Part shown: piece after piece, positions 18,191 to 27,515 of the stretch
Layout of the letters: the number at the start of each line of letters is the position of its first letter
Numbering within the stretch: the first letter of the stretch is position 1
Assembly: GCA_028821125.1 (NCBI GenBank)
Contig: JAPPHD010000071.1
Coordinates: 67,837-112,879 of the forward strand
Source: Gammaproteobacteria bacterium
Lineage (GTDB): Bacteria; Pseudomonadota; Gammaproteobacteria; Pseudomonadales; Azotimanducaceae
Length of the DNA: 45,043 bases
Direction: 5' to 3'
Program-made: the position numbers and the translations under genes
The notes under the pieces: generated by a model
The model's input: the letters and a program-made list of their open reading frames with translations, nothing else
The model's database searches: none
What the model was told of the DNA's origin: nothing

Positions 18191-20425
18191 ATGAAAATCG
18201 AAACGGCATTTGTACGGTCTGGCCTTCTTTGCATGGTTACGCTCTTTCTGTCCACCAATGCGTCAGGAGCAGACGATGCAGCGTCGGACACAGGCGGCGC
18301 TTCGGCCATTGAAGAAATAGTCGTTACCGGGCTGAGACGGGATGCGTCCGTGCTGACCACGCCAGCGTCGATATCGGCACTTGGCGCTGCGGATCTGACT
18401 GCGAAAGGCATTACCGCCATTTCCGACATACAGTACCTGGTGCCCAGCCTGCAGTACGGCGAATTCCTCGGCAGGCGCCAGGTTGCGATACGCGGTGTGG
18501 GAGAGTTCGCCTATGCGCCGGGTGTCATGGTGAGTCTCGATGGTGTCGTACAGGCTGTGGGGTCGAGTTCACAGTTGACGCAACTGGATCTTGAACGGGT
18601 AGAGGTGCTGCGGGGACCCCAGGGCACCCTCTACGGCCGAAACGCCAACGGCGGTGCGATCAATTTCATCTCCGCGAGGCCCTCGGATGAGTTCGGAGGT
18701 TATGTCAAAGCCGGTTACGCCGAGTACGAGCAGGCTACGATGGAAGGCGTTGTCAGTGGCCCTGTCGGGGACAGGGTATCGTTCCGCCTGGCTGCCAACT
18801 ATCTGGATGCCGGAGAGGGTTGGATAGAAAACCTCGTGCCCGGCGAGGGCGACCTGATGATGGGGGAAAAGTTCAACCTCCGCCTGATCGTCGCCGCCAG
18901 CCTGGCAGACAATCTGGAAGCGACCTTCACTTACGGCACCAGTCAATCGGATGGCCCCTGGGATCACTGGTCCATGATCCATCAGCACTTCGATCTTGGC
19001 GTTGCTTCCGGGCTGCCTCCCGTGAACGTTCGGACCACACCACCTTCGCCCGTTCTGTATACGGAGGAGCCGAGGAAGGTTTACAACAGGGGGCGTTCGG
19101 ATTCAGACCGTGAATACAACGTGTACAGCCTTACCTTCGACTGGGATATTCTTGGGATGAACGTCAAGTCAATCACCGCCTACCAGGACTGGGCCGACGA
19201 ATTCATCAACCCGGCAGATGGGACAAGCATCGGGCTCTTTGACAGACTGGCCGTCTCCGAGAACAAGACATTCACCCAGGAGATCAACGTTTCGGGCACA
19301 GTTGGAAATTTTGGGTGGATCGCCGGCATGTACTACATGGACGATGAGCGCTCCAGCCTCCTCTTTTTTGACTTTCCCGTACCGGCGCTGATCCCGCTGC
19401 CTTTTCCAATACAGCTCGACATCGACGAACCCTATTTCAATACGGAATCAAAGTCGGCTTTCGTAGACGTAACCTGGTCGGTGTCGGACCGTATCCGCGT
19501 TGGTGCCGGCATTCGCAGAACCCTGGAAGACAAGGAGGAAGGCCACACGTTCACGATTCTGGTGAAGTTCCCCTTCGGCACTACGCCTATCGTTCAGCGC
19601 TGCGGCCCCGTTCTGCTTGAACAGGCGTGGAACGAGTCACAGAACACGGTGAGAGCCTCGGTCGAATACGACCTCACGGACACCGGCATGGTGTATGCGA
19701 GTTATTCGGAAGGGTTCAAGGTAGGCGGGGTGAATTCATCCGATTGCAACCCCCCCTGGAACCCCGAGACCGTCGACGCCTACGAGGTTGGTTACAAGGC
19801 AAGTTTCGCCGGCGGCTCAACGACCCTGAGGGCGGCGGGTTTCAAATACGACTATTCAGATTTCCAGGTTGCCCAGGTGATCGGCATTCGGGGAGTGATT
19901 TCCAACGCCGGCGATGCCGAAATACTCGGTCTCGAACTCGAGCTGTCGTCCAGGCTGACCGACAACTGGAGTGTCAATGCCGGGCTGACCCTGCTTGACA
20001 CGGAATACGGGCATTTCCTGAACACCGATACATTGAGGGCGGGACTCGGCCTGTTGGAAAACAAGGGGAATCCCCTCAGCTATGCGCCCGATACCAGTGT
20101 CAATCTCGGCCTTACCTACACCACCCCGATCGGTTCGGGCGGGATCGTGTCGGTGAGTGTGGACGCAAGTTACCGATCGCGAGTGTTCTACAGGGAGTTC
20201 AATCAAGAGAAAGATTCCACGGACCCCTACACCATCGTGAACTTCAATGTGAACTGGCAGAGCCCGGATGAAGCGTATTCTGCCCGCCTGTTTGTTCGAA
20301 ACCTTACCGATGAGGAGTATGTCACCAACATACAGGGATCCAACACGACCTATGGCCGACAGGGCACCTGGAACATGCCCAGACAGGTCGGCTTCGAGGT
20401 TACCCGGTTCTTTGGCAGCCGATAG
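18191..20425 (+). CDS. TonB-dependent outer-membrane receptor
   Basis: A 744-residue receptor that would import a scarce nutrient across the outer membrane using TonB energy. Visible: a signal peptide (about residues 1-26, cleavage near NASGA), a TonB box EEIVVTG at 41-47, a plug domain with the VEVLRGPQGTLYGRNANGGAINF signature, and a 22-strand type barrel ending in a Phe-rich strand. It belongs to the broad class often annotated as ferric or pesticin-like receptors, frequent in marine bacteria for non-iron substrates. The receptor motif effectively ends at VTRFF; the extra Gly-Ser-Arg and the TAG stop coincide with the start of MITE-like element B. It heads the cluster with the selenoprotein. 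Confidence 0.93.
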   Translation: MKIETAFVRSGLLCMVTLFLSTNASGADDAASDTGGASAIEEIVVTGLRRDASVLTTPASISALGAADLTAKGITAISDIQYLVPSLQYGEFLGRRQVAIRGVGEFAYAPGVMVSLDGVVQAVGSSSQLTQLDLERVEVLRGPQGTLYGRNANGGAINFISARPSDEFGGYVKAGYAEYEQATMEGVVSGPVGDRVSFRLAANYLDAGEGWIENLVPGEGDLMMGEKFNLRLIVAASLADNLEATFTYGTSQSDGPWDHWSMIHQHFDLGVASGLPPVNVRTTPPSPVLYTEEPRKVYNRGRSDSDREYNVYSLTFDWDILGMNVKSITAYQDWADEFINPADGTSIGLFDRLAVSENKTFTQEINVSGTVGNFGWIAGMYYMDDERSSLLFFDFPVPALIPLPFPIQLDIDEPYFNTESKSAFVDVTWSVSDRIRVGAGIRRTLEDKEEGHTFTILVKFPFGTTPIVQRCGPVLLEQAWNESQNTVRASVEYDLTDTGMVYASYSEGFKVGGVNSSDCNPPWNPETVDAYEVGYKASFAGGSTTLRAAGFKYDYSDFQVAQVIGIRGVISNAGDAEILGLELELSSRLTDNWSVNAGLTLLDTEYGHFLNTDTLRAGLGLLENKGNPLSYAPDTSVNLGLTYTTPIGSGGIVSVSVDASYRSRVFYREFNQEKDSTDPYTIVNFNVNWQSPDEAYSARLFVRNLTDEEYVTNIQGSNTTYGRQGTWNMPRQVGFEVTRFFGSR

Positions 20426-20620: not shown

Positions 20621-21841
20621 CTGAAGAAGACCCTTCGGAAACCCGGCCAGCACCAGCCGGGCAGACGCCGACTGTTCGGCCAGGCGCTGCGGGGCCTGGC
20701 GGGCGCCGGTGTGCTGTTCCCCCTGGCCCATGCCGGCCGGGCACTCGGTGAATCTCCACCAGGCCCGGCCGATGTCCTGTTGCCGGGCAGGCTGGGCAAC
20801 CCGGCCCTGACCCTTCTCGAAGACAAACGACTGGACCCGCGGGTGCGTCGGGCGCTGGGCGCTGCCCCTCCGGGTGGACCGGGCGCCTCGCTTCCCGTGG
20901 TGACACTGAATTCGAGCTATGAGCATTGCCTGAGCTGGGTGAGCGCCATGGAGAAGATGCTCATGAGCCAGGATGCAGCCGCTCTGGCGGCAATGCCGGC
21001 ATTTGACGATATCGGCACGCACGAAGAAGTCGTACCGAGTGGCGACGGCAGCGGCATCAACCTCTACCTGGACAAACCCAGAAACCGAACCGGGAAGCTG
21101 CCGTGTGTCGTGCATGTGCACGGCGGCGGCATGGCCTTTACCACGGCACGACGCCCGTTGACCGCGAGATGGCGGAAGACAATTGCCCGGCAGGGCATGC
21201 TGGTTGTCGGCGTCGAGTTCCGCAACGCCGGCGGCGTACTGGGCAACCATCCCTATCCAGCGGGGCTGAACGACTGTGCCAGGGCCGTGCAATGGGTCCA
21301 TGCCAATCGGGGCAGCCTGGATATCTCCTCGCTGGTAATCGCCGGTGAATCCGGCGGAGGAAATCTCGCGGTCGCGACGGCGATCAAGGCCAACCTCGAG
21401 GGGTGGGTGCAGGCGATCGACGGCGTCTTCGCCATGGCGCCGATGATACTCGGGTTCTACACCTCGGTGCCCCCCGAGTTGCTTTCGTGGCGGGAAAACC
21501 AGGGTTATCAGGGCACCAACGAGATGATGCGGGCCATGACAAAGGTGTATGACCCGCAGGACGAGCATGAGACGAACCCGATGGCCTGGCCCTTTCATGC
21601 CACCGGGAGCGTCTTGAAGGGTTTGCCACCGCACATCATCACGAATTACGAACTCGACCTGATCCGGGACGACGGCGCCGTATTCGCCGGGAAGCTGCAG
21701 CAGGCCGGCGTTTCGGCAATATCGCGCACCATCGACGGTGCGGTGCACGTGCCTGAAATCGCGATGCCCGACCTGATACCCGATTTGACCCGGGAAACCG
21801 TCCGGTCGCTCGTTGGCTTTGCGAACAGTCGGCGATCATGA
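20621..21841 (+). CDS. Alpha/beta hydrolase (HSL/esterase type) with twin-arginine-like signal, probable CTG start
   Basis: An esterase-like hydrolase with the HGGG oxyanion motif (VHVHGGGMAF), the nucleophile in AGESGGG, an acidic residue in NYELD and a His in DGAVHVPE, giving a complete triad. An internal GTG at 20711 would give 376 residues but starts in the middle of a hydrophobic segment. Extending to CTG 20621, seven bases after GGAGGG at 20608-20613, adds 30 residues containing GRRRLFGQALRGLAGAG, a typical Tat/Sec-like signal peptide, giving 406 residues. TGA at 20603 closes the frame upstream. I therefore infer an exported enzyme with a rare CTG start; the catalytic part is secure, the start is not. 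Confidence 0.8.
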   Translation: MKKTLRKPGQHQPGRRRLFGQALRGLAGAGVLFPLAHAGRALGESPPGPADVLLPGRLGNPALTLLEDKRLDPRVRRALGAAPPGGPGASLPVVTLNSSYEHCLSWVSAMEKMLMSQDAAALAAMPAFDDIGTHEEVVPSGDGSGINLYLDKPRNRTGKLPCVVHVHGGGMAFTTARRPLTARWRKTIARQGMLVVGVEFRNAGGVLGNHPYPAGLNDCARAVQWVHANRGSLDISSLVIAGESGGGNLAVATAIKANLEGWVQAIDGVFAMAPMILGFYTSVPPELLSWRENQGYQGTNEMMRAMTKVYDPQDEHETNPMAWPFHATGSVLKGLPPHIITNYELDLIRDDGAVFAGKLQQAGVSAISRTIDGAVHVPEIAMPDLIPDLTRETVRSLVGFANSRRS

Positions 21842-22027
21842 GCGCCCGACCGCCGTGGATGTACCATTGAGAAAACCGTCTTTCCCAATATTCGTGCCAA
21901 CTGATGCGGGACTCCAGCATTCACGTTCCGACGGGATCGCCACGGGCCTGGCGAATAACGATACCGGGCAACCCGGAACGGGTAATCTGTCAGCCATACA
22001 GCAATCACGAATCGACGGGAGAACACT

Positions 22028-22561
22028 GTGATCGAGTATCTCAACCCGATTGCCAGCACCGCGATCAAGATCGAAACCTACGACCTGGCGCATGACATAC
22101 GCGCAAACGACGGGGCAGGAGCGACGGTGGGCCTGTTGGCGAACGGTTTTCCGGACTCGGAGCTGTTCCTGACAAAGGTCGCGAGCGCGCTCGAGAGCCG
22201 CCTTCCCAACATAGAAACCAGGCTCTGGAACAAGGGCAACGCGGGGGTTCCCGCCAGCAGGGAGATGCTCACCGAAGTCACATCGAACTGCCAGGTTGCG
22301 ATCGCCGCCTACGGGCACTGAGGCAGTTGCACTTCCGGCACCGTGCGTGACGGCATCAACATCGCAAGGCTGGGCGTTCCGGCCGTTGCCCTGGTTACCG
22401 AGGACTTCTGGGCGCAGGGGGATTTCGTGGCGCAGTCGCTGGGCATGCCCGGCGTTCCGAGGGTGCGGCTGCCCCACCCCATAGCGGGGACCGGCGAGGC
22501 GAGAATGGAAGAAGTCGCAGAGCTCTACGTGAACGAAATTGTGGACCGGTTTGCCGCGTGA
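22028..22561 (+). CDS. UGSC-family selenoprotein (in-frame TGA at 22319 read as selenocysteine)
   Basis: The GTG at 22028 (ggga a few bases upstream) opens a frame that runs to TGA at 22319-22321 and continues in the same frame, without a gap, to TGA at 22559-22561. Read through, the protein has 177 residues with position 98 in the context Tyr-Gly-His-U-Gly-Ser-Cys-Thr-Ser, exactly the motif that names the UGSC family of (seleno)proteins, in which the first position is Sec or Cys. Flanking sequence also fits the family: GLLANGFPDSELFL before, and V-R-D-G-I-N-I-A-R-L-G-V-P-A-V then T-E-D-F after. A downstream hairpin may be the SECIS. The gene overlaps the next one as GTGA. Function unknown; a redox or thiol-linked enzyme is plausible. 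Confidence 0.85.
22319..22354 (+). promoter_or_regulatory. Candidate bacterial SECIS hairpin downstream of the Sec TGA
   Basis: After TGA 22319-22321 the sequence folds with G22323-C22354, C22324-G22353, G22326-C22351, T22327-A22350, a two-base bulge on the right, then T22328-G22347 to C22332-G22343, closing a 10-nt loop (ttccggcacc). An alternative fold pairs 22335-22337 with 22351-22353 and 22338-22340 with 22344-22346. Either lies in the window where bacterial SECIS elements occur, although the first places its loop somewhat closer to the UGA than in E. coli fdhF. Confidence 0.5.
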
Positions 22562-23631
22562 ACGAACTACTGGAGGCACCGGACGAAGAAGCGGCTCTCG
22601 AGCAGTTGCACGATATGGGTTGCACCGACGGTTTGCCCGTCGTCATCCCTACGGCCGAGCGTGTTGAACGGCTCGTTCTTGCGAGTGGCCTCGACCCCGA
22701 CATGGTCCTCGGCGAAATGGGCCCCGGCATGGGCATCGCGACGGTAGAGAAGGTCGCCATAGCCGCGGTCATGGCCGGCTGCAAACCCGACTACATGCCG
22801 GTGGTGGTGGCGGCCGTCAAAGCCGCAAGCGACCCGAAATTCGACCTCGGGCCGCTGCAGGCAACCACGCACTGCACGGCGCCGCTCATCATCGTCAACG
22901 GCCCCGCGCGCAACGATTGCGGCCCGGTGGCTTCGGGATTCGGCGCCCTGGGCCCCGGACACCGGGCCAACGCCAGCATCGGCCGGGCGCTCCGGCTCTG
23001 CCTCATCAACATAGGCGGCGGGCGGCCCGGCGTCTCCGACATGGCACTTCTCGGCCACCCGGGCAAATTTACCTATTGCCTTGCGGAAGCCGAGGAAGAG
23101 TCGCCGTTTCCGCCACTGCATACGAGCCGGGGTTTCGCCGCGACAGACAGCGCCGTCACCCTGTTGGGGTGCGAGGCGCCGCATTCGGTTCTGTACAGCG
23201 ACAACGCCGACGACCCGGAAGACGCGGAAAAGCTCCTGTACGTACTGTCGGTGGGATTGGCGAACATCGCCACGAACAACGCGATCTTCTGTTCGGGCGC
23301 CGCGCTCGTGGTGTTGGGGCCGAAGCACGCGGACGTGCTTGCGCGGGCGAACATGAGCCGGGAGGTTGTGCAACAACGCTTGTGGGAACTGACGCACCAT
23401 CCCACGGCCGACCACGACCGCTACGGCCAGCAGTTCGGCTCCAGGTTTTCAGGGGCAACCTATCCTGCGTTCGCGGAGCCGGGCGACATCATGGTCATGG
23501 TGGCCGGGGGCAGCGGGCTGTATTCCATGGTCATGCCGAATTGGGGGGGTGCGGATCACGCCAACAGTCCCGTCAGCGTAAAGATAGAACACGAATTCTA
23601 TTGCGAGGTTCCCGGTCTGGCGGACGCCTAG
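22558..23631 (+). CDS. Conserved protein coupled to the UGSC selenoprotein, function unknown
   Basis: A 357-residue protein whose GTG start overlaps the selenoprotein stop (GTGA), so the two are probably made together. Its conserved-looking blocks are MGCTDGLPVVIPTAERV near the N-terminus, GIATVEKVAIAAVMAGCKPDYMPVV, an APLIIVNGP strand, GPGHRANASIGRALRLCLIN, and G-H-P-G-K-F-T-Y-C followed by an acidic E-E-E-S-P-F-P-P-L stretch. I recognise the block pattern as a conserved uncharacterised family but know no activity. Several Cys and His residues (GCTDG, AGCKP, THC, NDC) could bind metal or act in redox. The last codons run into TAG followed by an end fragment of the MITE-like family. Confidence 0.75.
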   Translation: MNELLEAPDEEAALEQLHDMGCTDGLPVVIPTAERVERLVLASGLDPDMVLGEMGPGMGIATVEKVAIAAVMAGCKPDYMPVVVAAVKAASDPKFDLGPLQATTHCTAPLIIVNGPARNDCGPVASGFGALGPGHRANASIGRALRLCLINIGGGRPGVSDMALLGHPGKFTYCLAEAEEESPFPPLHTSRGFAATDSAVTLLGCEAPHSVLYSDNADDPEDAEKLLYVLSVGLANIATNNAIFCSGAALVVLGPKHADVLARANMSREVVQQRLWELTHHPTADHDRYGQQFGSRFSGATYPAFAEPGDIMVMVAGGSGLYSMVMPNWGGADHANSPVSVKIEHEFYCEVPGLADA

Positions 23632-23705: not shown

Positions 23706-24824
23706 ATGGACCCGATCATTCTCTACGGCGCGCCTTTTTCCCTGTACACGGGCCGGGCGCGCAGCTATTTCATCAAGGCGGGCATCGACTATCGGGAAGA
23801 ACCCCATGCCTCCGCTCACTTCTATGAATCCGTGCTGCCCAAGGCCGGGGGCCGCCGCGGCATTCCGACCATCGAATTTCCCGATGGGAGCGTCATTCGC
23901 GACGGTGTGGCGATCATCGATCATTTCGAGCAGCTCAATGGCGGATCGTTTTCCCCTTCGACACCGAATCAAAGGATCGTCAGCCGCCTGCTGGACGCGA
24001 TCGGCGCCGAAGGCCTGTTGCGGCCGTGCATGCACTACCGCTGGAATTTCGATCAGGACAACGACGAGTTTCTGCGCTTTCACTTTCGAACCATTTATTC
24101 CGGGAACGACGCCGATCGAGCCGCAGCCGAAAGAATGCAGTTCATCAAGGAAGAAGTTAATCCCGCCTGGGGTGTCACGCCGGAAAATTACGAATTGATC
24201 GAGCGGCTGCATCTCGGAACGCTGCAATCGCTGAACGCACACTTTTCCGAATACCCCTATTTTCTCGGCGGCAAACCCTGCATTGGCGATTTCGGCCTGA
24301 TGGCCCCCTTGTACGGGCACCTGGGGCGCGACCCGAAACCGCTTTCCCTGATGCAGACCCATGCGGTGCGGCTGTTCAGATGGGTCGAACGCATGAATCG
24401 ACCGGAGCCCGACGTGGGGGAATTCGCTAACAAGGACTATGCCTATCTGGCCAATGACGAGGTACCGGACACGCTTATCGCCGCCCTGAAGCACTTCGCA
24501 ATCGACTTCGTCCCCGAGAGCCGCGCCGCCTGCGACCGCATCAACCAATGGCTCGACGAGAACAGGGACACACCACCCCTCGCCGAGGTTGAGCGGGGGC
24601 TGGGCAACTGCGAATTCGACGTCGACGGCACCCGGATGTCGGCGATGGCGCAGCCGTTTCGCTTCTATGTACTGAAGCGCGTGCAGGACGAGTACGACGC
24701 ACTGGACGAAAAGGCCAGGCAGGATGTGGACTCGTTGCTGGCCGCCTGCAACATGCGCGAAGTGCTGGAGATGAGGCTTTCCCGGGGGATCGGCAGGCAC
24801 AACAACCTTGAGGTCTGGCTGTGA
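23706..24824 (+). CDS. Glutathione S-transferase-like protein with long C-terminal extension
   Basis: A 372-residue protein with an N-terminal thioredoxin-like GST domain (ILYGAPFSLYTGRARSYFIKAGIDYREE, then GIPTIEFPDGSVIRDGVAIIDHFE) and a helical C-terminal domain (LGTLQSLNAHFSEYPYFLGGKPCIGDFGLMAPLYGHL is the usual GST_C core). About 110 residues follow the core, which is longer than a standard 200-230-residue GST. GSTs conjugate glutathione to electrophiles or catalyse dehalogenation and isomerisation; the substrate is unknown. It follows the selenoprotein pair by 74 bases on the same strand, consistent with one catabolic or detoxifying unit. Confidence 0.8.
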   Translation: MDPIILYGAPFSLYTGRARSYFIKAGIDYREEPHASAHFYESVLPKAGGRRGIPTIEFPDGSVIRDGVAIIDHFEQLNGGSFSPSTPNQRIVSRLLDAIGAEGLLRPCMHYRWNFDQDNDEFLRFHFRTIYSGNDADRAAAERMQFIKEEVNPAWGVTPENYELIERLHLGTLQSLNAHFSEYPYFLGGKPCIGDFGLMAPLYGHLGRDPKPLSLMQTHAVRLFRWVERMNRPEPDVGEFANKDYAYLANDEVPDTLIAALKHFAIDFVPESRAACDRINQWLDENRDTPPLAEVERGLGNCEFDVDGTRMSAMAQPFRFYVLKRVQDEYDALDEKARQDVDSLLAACNMREVLEMRLSRGIGRHNNLEVWL

Positions 24825-24991: not shown

Positions 24992-26326
24992 ATGCCGACT
25001 GTGGGGAAATCGACGGGTGACACTGAAGAACCGGGGCTGCGCAGCGGCGGGCTGGGTTTCCTCGCCTTCCTGACCTTCCTCAACGTTCTCAACTTCGTCG
25101 ACCGCCAGCTATTGGGCAGCTTCGCCAACTGGATCGTGCCGGAGCTGGGACTCACCAATACCCAGTTCGGCCTGCTGACAGGCCTGGTATTCATCTTCTT
25201 CTACGCGGTGATGGGCCTTTTCATGGGCACCCTGGTCGACAGGCTGAACCGAACCCGGCTCATCGCCGCCGGCGTGGGCTTGTGGAGCGGGCTGACGGCG
25301 CTTTCCGGCATGGCCTGCAACTTCGTCAGCCTGGCCCTGCCGAGGGCGTTCATCGGCGTCGGCGAATCGGTTCTCACCCCGGCCGCCATGTCGCTGTTCG
25401 GCGACCGCTACCCGTCCGGTTCGCTCGGGGTCGCCACGGGCATCTACGGCCTTGGCGTGCCCATCGGCATCGCCAGCAGCCTGTTCATCGTCGCTTACCT
25501 GGAACCTTACCTGGGTTGGCGCGGCTGCTTCTATGCGCTGGGCGCCGTCGGTGTCGTGCTGGCGGCGGCGATGCTGTTCCTGAAGGAGACCCCCAGGGTT
25601 CACCAGCGCGACGAACCGGGGGTCCGTACGCCGTCGTTCCGGGAGATCATCCGCAGCCTGTTCTCGGCATTGAGGCATTCACCGGCCCTGATCGCAACGG
25701 TGCTGGGTGCGGTGTCCTTCACCCTGCTGTTGGGAGCAGCGGCTTTCGAACAGCTCTGGTTCGTCAGGGAGCGCGGCTTCGACCGTTCCGAGATCGCCGA
25801 AATCAGCGCCTGGTTCGCCATTTTCGCCGGTATCCTCGGCACGCTCATCGGCGGTTACGGCGGTGACATCTTCATGCGCAGGACCAGTATCGGGCGGCCG
25901 ATGTTCGTGTTCTGGATCATGCTCGTGCTGGCACCGTTCAACGTGGCCCTGCGTATCGTCGAGCCGGATTCCCCGCTCTTCTGGCTGGGCGTGTTCTTCA
26001 TCTACTTTCAGCTCGGCTGCTTCTACGGGCCCGTCTTCGCAACCGTGCAGGAACTGGCGCCGCCGCGCATCCGCGGCACGGTGGTCGCCTTCGCCATCCT
26101 GATGCTGCAGTTGTTCGGCGCCGCCGCCGGCGCGGTCATCGCCGGCTTCGTCATCGAATCGCTGCTCGATGCCGGCGTGCCGAATCCCTATACGCGCACC
26201 CTGTTGGGTTTCACCTTCGTTTCCATGGCATCGATCCCGTTGTTCTTCTACGGGGGGCGCCGGTTTCTACGGGACCGGGCAGCGCTGTTCGCGCGGGAGA
26301 ACGTCCGGCACCCGGAAGGGGCATAA
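24992..26326 (+). CDS. MFS transporter (spinster-like)
   Basis: A 444-residue major facilitator protein with about 12 transmembrane helices in two six-helix halves. The first half shows FLNVLNFVDRQLLGSFANWI, the inter-helix motif GTLVDRLNRTRLIAAG and R-A-F-I-G-V-G-E-S; the second half repeats the pattern (MRRTSIGRPMFVFWI, PRIRGTVVAFAILML). This is the spinster-like subgroup common in catabolic clusters of marine and soil Proteobacteria. The ATG at 24992 has no strong ribosome site; an upstream gap of 167 bases holds no other gene. Likely moves the substrate or product of the selenoprotein cluster, by position only. Confidence 0.88.
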   Translation: MPTVGKSTGDTEEPGLRSGGLGFLAFLTFLNVLNFVDRQLLGSFANWIVPELGLTNTQFGLLTGLVFIFFYAVMGLFMGTLVDRLNRTRLIAAGVGLWSGLTALSGMACNFVSLALPRAFIGVGESVLTPAAMSLFGDRYPSGSLGVATGIYGLGVPIGIASSLFIVAYLEPYLGWRGCFYALGAVGVVLAAAMLFLKETPRVHQRDEPGVRTPSFREIIRSLFSALRHSPALIATVLGAVSFTLLLGAAAFEQLWFVRERGFDRSEIAEISAWFAIFAGILGTLIGGYGGDIFMRRTSIGRPMFVFWIMLVLAPFNVALRIVEPDSPLFWLGVFFIYFQLGCFYGPVFATVQELAPPRIRGTVVAFAILMLQLFGAAAGAVIAGFVIESLLDAGVPNPYTRTLLGFTFVSMASIPLFFYGGRRFLRDRAALFARENVRHPEGA

Positions 26327-26527: not shown

Positions 26528-26655
26528 ATCGACCGGCAATGCTTTGGCGACACGGTGGCGACCGTCAGTCTGGGCAACACCTGGCAGATGGACTTTCGCC
26601 CGCTTGGCGCAGACCGTTCTGCAACCGTGCACATGGCCCTTGCGCGCGGGTCATG
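26525..26655 (+). pseudogene. Fragment of an AlkB-like 2OG-Fe(II) dioxygenase, fused in frame to the CoA transferase stub
   Basis: In frame with the CoA transferase stub the sequence reads H-I-D-R-Q-C-F-G-D followed by TVATVSLGNTWQMDFRPLG and M-A-L-A-R-G-S. The HxD iron motif, the FGD/ATxSLG strand and M-x-F-R resemble the core of AlkB-family dioxygenases. Only about 40 residues survive. The His codon at 26525 appears shared with the CoA transferase stub at the junction. Recognition is by motif pattern only. Confidence 0.5.
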
Positions 26656-27515
26656 CCTACGTACAGGCGATCAAGGTCCAATTGGCGGGCTTCCCGTTCC
26701 TCTTCCGTCAACTCGCGGGGCGCATCTGCAACGCCCGAGAACGCCAACTGATGGTGCTGTTCATCCTCCGCCTTGGGAAAAACCGACGCACCTAACCGTG
26801 GAATGAGTACAGCGCGAAATTCAAGGCCCTTGCTACGATCGAATGTGCCGACCCGTACCCCCTTGCCTAATGGGTCGTTCCCACGCATGTCTTTCAACAG
26901 CACACAGGGGATTCCCAATTGGCGCTCCAGAAACTTCCTGATTTGCTTGCAATCGTCGTTGCTACGCGTCAATACGCCGATTGTTTCAGGGCGGTAATCG
27001 CAATCGTTGACCAATTCCCGGACCTTTTCCGCAATAGCGGAGATTTCGCCCTGTTTGGCCACCTGGATGAACTGGGGTCGAATACCGTCCTCATGTTCAA
27101 ACTGCACATGTAACGCGGCGCCATCGTCGTTGTCCTCCCGGACAGGCAGCACATCCCCGCGAACGGTTTTCGCCGCTTCGACGATCTGCCTGGTGTTCCG
27201 GTAATTGGTCTGCAGAATCTCCGCGCGTCCGGAGACCTGGATTCCCGCCGCCCGCAATCCCTCGTCCCATGCCTTGCGCAGTTGCCAGCACAATTCACGG
27301 TCAGACCGGTTGAATTTGCGCCGGCGACCAAGCCGTTCAAACCGATCCGTGTCGAGGTATTCTTCCCTTGTTGCCGCCCTGCCCTTGATCACCTTGTCGA
27401 TTTCGTCCTTCAGATACTCAGCGCTGCATCTTTCGAGCCTGCTGCCATGGATGACGGCTTCATAGGCTTGGTCGAAAGTCGGGCTAGCCTTCTGCAGATC
27501 TATGGTTGGTTTCAC
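26641..27515 (-). pseudogene. Remnant of a UvrD/Rep-like helicase lacking its Walker B segment and both ends
   Basis: The minus-strand frame keeps superfamily I helicase pieces: motif IV region ILQTNYRNTRQIVEAAKTV, motif V GVRVGTFDRSKGLEFRAVLI and motif VI DRLYVGMTRA. The N-terminal 2A domain with Walker A is missing. Between KAWDEGLRAAGI and VSGRAEILQTNYRNT a stretch containing the D-E-A-Q Walker B box and the following Q-motif helix appears deleted in frame. The frame ends just after motif VI, where it meets the AlkB-like fragment. Such a protein could not hydrolyse ATP, so I call it a pseudogene although about 290 codons remain open. Confidence 0.7.

Follow-up and report, generated by a model that had tools for sequence, protein, structure and literature searches.

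A recoded UGSC-family selenoprotein gene in an Azotimanducaceae gammaproteobacterium, its near-constant partner gene and a probable remote kinship with GrdB/PrdB

The UGSC family has already been listed for metagenomes and in reviews (PMC2398784; PMC13188914). In the available excerpts of PMC2398784 it is presented as a major bacterial selenoprotein family of aquatic metagenomes, with 255 selenocysteine (Sec) and 21 cysteine (Cys) sequences, and a fusion of UGSC to a domain called Unknown_1 is mentioned for the Global Ocean Sampling data. The functions of such families are largely uncharacterised according to the excerpts of the 2026 review (PMC13188914). Here, one member was analyzed in a stretch of 45,043 nucleotides (the window) from a gammaproteobacterium of the Azotimanducaceae (assembly GCA_028821125.1, contig JAPPHD010000071.1, positions 67,837 to 112,879 of the forward strand). 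A recoded UGSC gene is in itself of a known kind, and the value of the locus lies in the adjoining gene and in a link to GrdB/PrdB (selenoprotein B of glycine and D-proline reductase, PF07355). The findings new here are the near-constant partner encoded by the next gene, the likeness of a diverse UGSC profile to the GrdB/PrdB Sec domain, and a Rossmann-like structural model. The partner, the GrdB link and the form of the insertion signal go beyond the first-pass annotation of this DNA, made from the sequence alone, which had proposed a UGSC selenoprotein. With a near-constant partner and a GrdB/PrdB link, a redox protein without a known role becomes an enzyme of two proteins that can be put to the test.

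When its internal TGA was read as Sec, the UGSC gene (Table 1) gave 177 residues followed by the terminal TGA at 22559-22561. The TGA of residue 98 was the sole internal stop in 22028-22558, in agreement with the single, once-interrupted frame claimed beforehand, and the U/C-G-S-C motif was present in the translation as GHUGSC at residues 96-101. The read-through protein matched the Pfam family UGSC (PF24696) with 151.7 bits (gathering score 25; E 2.8e-44), which confirmed the proposed family assignment; with Sec entered as C, it reached 112 bits against the NCBIfam model NF041046 (UGSC), below the cut-off of 125 bits. Since the Pfam match spans residues 21-175 and both halves are conserved in relatives, the earlier view that both are coding was sustained. 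A plain gene caller cut the frame into 97 amino acids (22028-22321) and 72 amino acids (22343-22561), exactly the split that had been foreseen. By sequence, the PDB returned only two designed-looking chains (E 0.46 and 0.9). Judged by its sequence, the window gene is a true UGSC selenoprotein, a further member of an already known family.

The relatives compared were the best 80 of 100 loci from a scan of genome contigs with six search peptides, none of which covers the TGA codon. TGA stood at the Sec codon in 80/80 of them, at the position that the family uses for Sec or Cys, so the refuting case named in the first-pass annotation, in which close homologues carry Cys and the TGA is unique to one assembly, failed. 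A base error is unlikely because 80 other assemblies share the TGA. UGSC was found in 173 of 200 genomes of the same taxonomic family, with one TGA in each match row among the matches listed, and the organism's own genome (G000, 97.3% complete) holds three UGSC genes with one TGA each. The expected selA, selB, selC and selD were all present in this genome, above the cut-offs: SelA (C142:89332, 484.3 bits), SelB (C142:90561, 385.5 bits) and tRNA-Sec (C142:92461, 75.8 bits) share one contig, and SelD (277 bits) lies on another, C33. A nonsense mutation, an assembly error or a plain stop, any of which would leave a gene truncated to 97 amino acids, would agree with the split made by a standard caller; against the TGA in every relative, the conservation of both halves and the complete Sec machinery, the chance of such a truncation is negligible, and a pseudogene and a sequencing error were rejected on the same evidence. 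The recoding of this UGA by the organism appears borne out by these three lines of evidence, and we regard it as almost certain that SelB and tRNA-Sec recode it, helped by a presumed selenocysteine insertion sequence (SECIS) that lies within the coding sequence, shortly 3' of the UGA. The SelD gene of this genome (L105:2916-5099, G000:C33) encodes a fusion of 727 amino acids, a pyridine-nucleotide oxidoreductase followed by AIRS domains, and resembles the Ndh-SelD fusions named in the excerpts of PMC2398784.

Among more distant members, 48 distinct stretches lay above the cut-off with a motif match, 41 with Sec (of which 38 belong to paralogous or distant clades) and seven with Cys. Cys forms were found only among these distant members; the seven stretches are plasmid-borne, in haloarchaea, Arthrobacter, Embleya, Neorhizobium and Variovorax, and the UGSC copies of Acidovorax and Paracoccus plasmids carry TGA (nine of 16 plasmid matches examined). 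One further Cys form, outside the seven, has no stop and reads GGCGLC (L112, G337). Across 27 diverse UGSC members the only invariant columns were C/U98, C101 and F127; the Sec/Cys pair is the core of the UGSC protein. The TGA leads annotators to shorten the gene, as in the record of the Acidovorax sp. T1 plasmid p2-T1, where the annotated coding sequence (L144:5947-6237) has 96 amino acids, ends in ...GSGD and stops at the UGSC TGA. In this IncP conjugative plasmid, the Sec-type UGSC gene, whose annotation as a hypothetical protein ends at the TGA, and its partner lie near IS1071 and IS91-like transposases.

The presumed SECIS core, CCGGCACCGTGCGTGACGG, comprises 19 bases that were identical in 81 loci except for one C-to-T in one locus. 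Each of codons 104-108 (22337-22351; GGC ACC GTG CGT GAC) was represented by a single codon in 81/81 loci; among 47 further positions whose residue is more than 95% conserved, none was single-codon and the commonest codon averaged 49% (position 109, partly inside the core, was excluded from the 47). This difference indicates that selection acts on the nucleic acid itself, as is characteristic of a SECIS. Bacterial SECIS elements lie about 16-37 nucleotides after the UGA and have a G among the first loop bases, and the invariant codons, lying in that place, fit such an element. The core can form a weak hairpin with a five-nucleotide loop, CGUGC, with G second, which begins 20 nucleotides past the UGA. 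RNAalifold on the 81 loci, from which a set of 70 distinct N-free stretches was drawn, returned the short core only, and the energy of the consensus hairpin was -4.9 kcal/mol. Two copies of the pattern GGCACCGTGCGTGACGG are present in the organism's genome, each in a UGSC gene, and the third UGSC gene (contig C189) is without it. In the 41 Sec stretches of the wider family, the hairpin after the UGA had a mean z of -1.52 against synonymous randomisations (29/41 below -1), versus -0.57 in the seven Cys forms (1/7 below -1). In most paralogous or distant Sec members the hairpin was stronger, its loop (GGUC or GUG, for example) lying 17-21 nucleotides after the UGA; one (L120, a locus of genome G332) had no hairpin.

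Several of the structural results weigh against a SECIS at this place. The 53-nucleotide hairpin of the window was weak (z +1.41) and no stabler than synonymous randomisations in two tests (z +1.0 and +0.71); the mean z was -0.50 over 80 N-free loci, and -0.18 with the core fixed (80/81 loci kept, L018 excluded for Ns). Rfam gave no match on the UGSC region, and SECIS_3 gave none genome-wide among the 150 of 2504 first-look candidates that were scored. Four Cys-type members (L142, L146, L147 and L148) still show a hairpin, so that the contrast between Sec and Cys forms is not clean. The lower stem was paired in only 48.9% of cells and contained two pairs in which both bases had changed; versions of the whole structure slid along the alignment had fewer paired cells, yet a slide of +3 had a covariation score of 0.107 versus 0.080. 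The lower stem was not relied on as support for a SECIS, given that pairing and the higher covariation of the +3 slide. The evidence for a SECIS in the window is mixed, with strong codon invariance on one side and a weak hairpin and no Rfam match on the other; hairpins are clearer in the paralogous clades.

The gene next to UGSC encodes a protein of 357 amino acids whose GTG start lies inside the UGSC stop (GTGA). This partner adjoined UGSC in 79 of the 80 relatives, the exception (L049) ending at a contig edge; the partner of L048 was split in two, and contig ends cut the partners of L030, L070 and L087. The start overlapped the UGSC stop in 71/80 pairs, the window included. Among 369 genomes of the class, the six with UGSC were the same six as those with the partner, the organism's own among them. 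At distant loci the partner was placed upstream of UGSC (the C189 copy and Arthrobacter) or shared one frame with it (G332 and Variovorax), and, with upstream and fused arrangements included, a partner match was present in the locus of 40/41 Sec stretches, three of which (L131, L138 and L140) had themselves been retrieved through the partner, and of 7/7 Cys stretches. The Unknown_1 domain of PMC2398784 is, like the partner, a conserved domain fused to UGSC, and as far as the excerpts describe it, the two are very probably the same. We consider it very probable that UGSC and the partner act as a single enzyme, given that their genes adjoin and overlap translationally, are fused in places and occur in the same genomes. 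With the start of the partner placed inside the UGSC stop, failed Sec insertion might also depress partner translation.

No credible Pfam or NCBIfam match was found for the partner among 65 members, and its sequence retrieved only a coat protein from the PDB (E 0.04). The alignments comprised the window plus 64 of 71 usable partners and the window plus 63 of 74 usable UGSC proteins of its clade, six UGSC and eight partner loci having been excluded as too short or for containing Ns or extra stops. In 54 diverse partners the residues D24, P31, P81, G115, A137, N138, G142, R143, E177, G192, P255 and G317 were constant wherever present, and no cysteine reached 85%, so that the invariant redox pair is held by UGSC, and the partner may have a redox role as well. 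Genome G332 has at least 11 UGSC genes (L110, L114-L121, L131 and L138; nine UGSC matches plus two, L131 and L138, beside partners), most of them in long frames also holding the partner domain, and one (L117) has, by eye, a signal-peptide-like start. In the C189 copy (L103:7005-8579, G000), the partner is fused behind an AhpC/TSA-like domain and is followed by a TGA-containing UGSC gene with the motif UGSCTTC.

The AlphaFold2 model of UGSC (mean predicted local distance difference test, pLDDT, 92.7) consisted of alternating strands and helices in a Rossmann-like beta-alpha arrangement, with U98 just ahead of a helix. The nearest PDB entries were alpha/beta proteins with E 0.002 or worse, many of which we take, by reading, to be flavodoxin-like, and no thioredoxin was among the 50 listed of 1560 matches. 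The model thus suggests that UGSC does not have the thioredoxin fold supposed for it in 2008, a thioredoxin topology not being seen in it; the UxxC motif is shared with selenoproteins of the thioredoxin fold, and the fold of the modelled protein differs.

A profile of the 27 diverse UGSC members was aligned by hhalign in local mode with 34 (of 35) GrdB/PrdB-like Sec domains. The probability was 95.2 (E 2.7e-8), with Sec on Sec, Cys on Cys and PHP on FPLG; against one real GrdB alone it was 95.9 (E 5.2e-9), with PHP on PHP. It stayed at 92.8 without the real GrdB, at 95.6 without the window clade and at 89.1 with the motif masked, and 100 column shuffles reached at most 2.4. An earlier run, possibly in global mode, had given 94.2 for the diverse profile and 0.05 for the window clade; the local-mode run was the one used. 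Against the PrdB-like protein of the organism's own genome alone, the diverse profile gave a probability of 13 (E 0.0022), Cys on Cys, and BLASTP of UGSC against that protein found nothing. On a real GrdB (genome G662), the Pfam GRDB model runs to the last residue before the Sec codon, which is the end of the model (347/347), and this may be why ordinary scans miss the kinship. UGSC and GrdB/PrdB share a strand, UxxC at a helix start, a further strand and then PHP(L/I) or FPLG. GrdB has UxxCxxC, as its motif is given in the excerpts of PMC13188914, and so has the C189 paralogue; the UGSC of the window reads UGSCTSG, without the third Cys of GrdB, whereas some paralogues read UGSCTTC or UGSCSTC. 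UGSC also differs from GrdB in being without the long N-terminal part and without a GrdE-like partner. A comparison of the partner with the N-terminal part of GrdB was negative. The kinship was not found stated in titles on the UGSC family or on UGSC with GrdB or proline reductase. It is likely, in our assessment, that the UxxC selenol/thiol pair at the helix start is the main redox centre of UGSC and that its Rossmann-like domain is remotely homologous to the GrdB/PrdB Sec domain.

Selenoproteins of the B type also occur in these bacteria. GRDB matches were found in 42 of 61 genomes of the family, and PF07355 in six of 299 genomes, all PrdB-like, with Sec in the organism's own and Cys in the other five. 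The own PrdB-like protein represents a second selenoprotein family in the genome (L123, G000:C35, P0002), with an in-frame TGA, Sec251, in VPVUPVCHQ. Genome G662, of the window's taxonomic family, has a GrdE-GrdB pair (L211:7797-10111).

Two arrangements support a link to thioredoxin, namely the gene order trxB-trxA-partner-UGSC(Cys) in Arthrobacter and the AhpC/TSA-like domain on the partner of the C189 copy (26.0 bits, at the cut-off of 26). The genes around UGSC, including the esterase-like and GST-like genes beside the window copy, point to catabolism. M19 dipeptidase was encoded by 12 of 60 upstream genes and fumarase by 11 of 62 downstream genes (sets drawn from 78 and 73 genes, respectively, with mostly short calls excluded); SDR and P450 genes also occurred, and the plasmid loci had genes for the phosphoenolpyruvate (PEP) mutase/isocitrate lyase family, CoA enzymes and carboxylate transporters. 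On balance, we favor a selenoenzyme of two proteins that is linked to thioredoxin and uses UxxC chemistry like that of GrdB. In this enzyme, UGSC would attack or reduce through the UxxC pair, the partner would bind the substrate and thioredoxin would restore the selenol. We propose, only tentatively, that within a catabolic pathway the pair reduces a small molecule with electrons from thioredoxin. Somewhat more speculative is the idea of a so far unrecognised GrdB/PrdB branch made up of UGSC and its partner, in which the Sec domain was kept and the pyruvoyl subunit was replaced by a new family. Such a branch would cleave bonds reductively with reducing power from thioredoxin, in Gammaproteobacteria of aquatic habitats and, in the Cys form, in haloarchaea and actinobacteria, and the 11 or more paralogues of a single genome would serve different substrates.

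A number of results count against a two-protein enzyme of the GrdB type. The window clade's own 64-row profile reached a probability of only 2.0 against GrdB/PrdB, PF07355 (the Pfam GRDB family) was not among the matches of the 27 UGSC members at E up to 10, and the partner compared with one GrdE gave 0.0 (diverse) and 5.9 (window clade), no genome-wide search for GrdE having been made. One standalone UGSC gene (L172/L181) was without a partner within the surrounding 12 kb. Cysteines 75, 106, 174 and 349 of the partner were invariant in 65/65 rows of the window clade, and C75 and C174 were kept in 42/54 and 41/53 diverse partners, so the partner may, by its residue conservation, carry redox chemistry of its own. 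The catabolic neighbors differ between lineages, and no single substrate is indicated by them.

Other functions were also considered for the pair. UGSC could be a general thiol/selenol oxidoreductase or peroxidase of the thioredoxin type, with a neighbor that is merely co-transcribed: a sentence in the excerpts of PMC13188914 can be read in this way, and a Trx/AhpC-like domain and trxA-trxB lie close by in some loci. The confident Rossmann-like model, the lack of thioredoxin among its listed PDB matches and a partner that is near-constant, fused in places and found in reversed order make this function rather unlikely. Alternatively, the partner might be a lyase or hydratase with a distant likeness to fumarate hydratase, perhaps with a cluster held by cysteines; UGSC would then serve it as a redox switch or supply it with electrons. 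Fumarate hydratases took each of the first 11 places among the Foldseek matches of the partner (best E 4e-4), and many partners have C75 and C174, but TM-scores were just 0.25-0.29 with a root-mean-square deviation of 15-17 Å, no single cysteine is present in as many as 85% of the diverse partners, and the PDB sequence search yielded nothing past the coat protein; we consider this quite improbable. Selenols bind soft metals, and GST-like and P450 neighbors occur in some loci, which would suit a pair that handles a metal or toxic compound and not a carbon source. Nevertheless, most of the named neighbors fit catabolism, among them hydrolases, SDR, CoA enzymes, the PEP mutase/isocitrate lyase family and carboxylate transporters. 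Neither a mer nor an ars gene was named in the tables of seven plasmid loci or among the 25 families listed each for upstream and downstream genes, and such a detoxifying role seems very improbable.

Table 1. Features of the UGSC locus and its surroundings (positions in the window).
Feature	Position	Strand	Basis
UGSC-family selenoprotein gene	22028-22561	+	GTG start, internal TGA, terminal TGA; PF24696; TGA of relatives
UGA codon for Sec98, motif GHUGSC	22319-22321	+	Frame and conservation in relatives
Presumed SECIS core	22335-22353	+	Near-invariance; codon invariance
Possible ribosome-binding site GGGAG, 6 nucleotides upstream of the GTG	22017-22021	+	By eye
Partner protein, 357 amino acids, no named family	22558-23631	+	Adjacency, overlap, co-occurrence
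Alpha/beta hydrolase (Abhydrolase_3), possibly same pathway	20711-21841	+	Pfam; upstream gene with at least 50% identity in 6/59 compared relatives
GST N-terminal domain protein, possibly same pathway	23706-24824	+	GST_N_3 in 5/62 downstream genes, the window's included
MFS transporter, loose association only	24992-26326	+	Pfam
TonB-dependent receptor, loose association only	18191-20425	+	Pfam

Two minor observations concern the surroundings of these genes. The standalone UGSC gene L181 (G725:C1) is of the Sec type and lies, by eye, beside a secA-like gene. On the minus strand of the window, a frame of 316 amino acids (26565-27515) matched in Pfam only C-terminal helicase domains (UvrD_C) and is perhaps a remnant.
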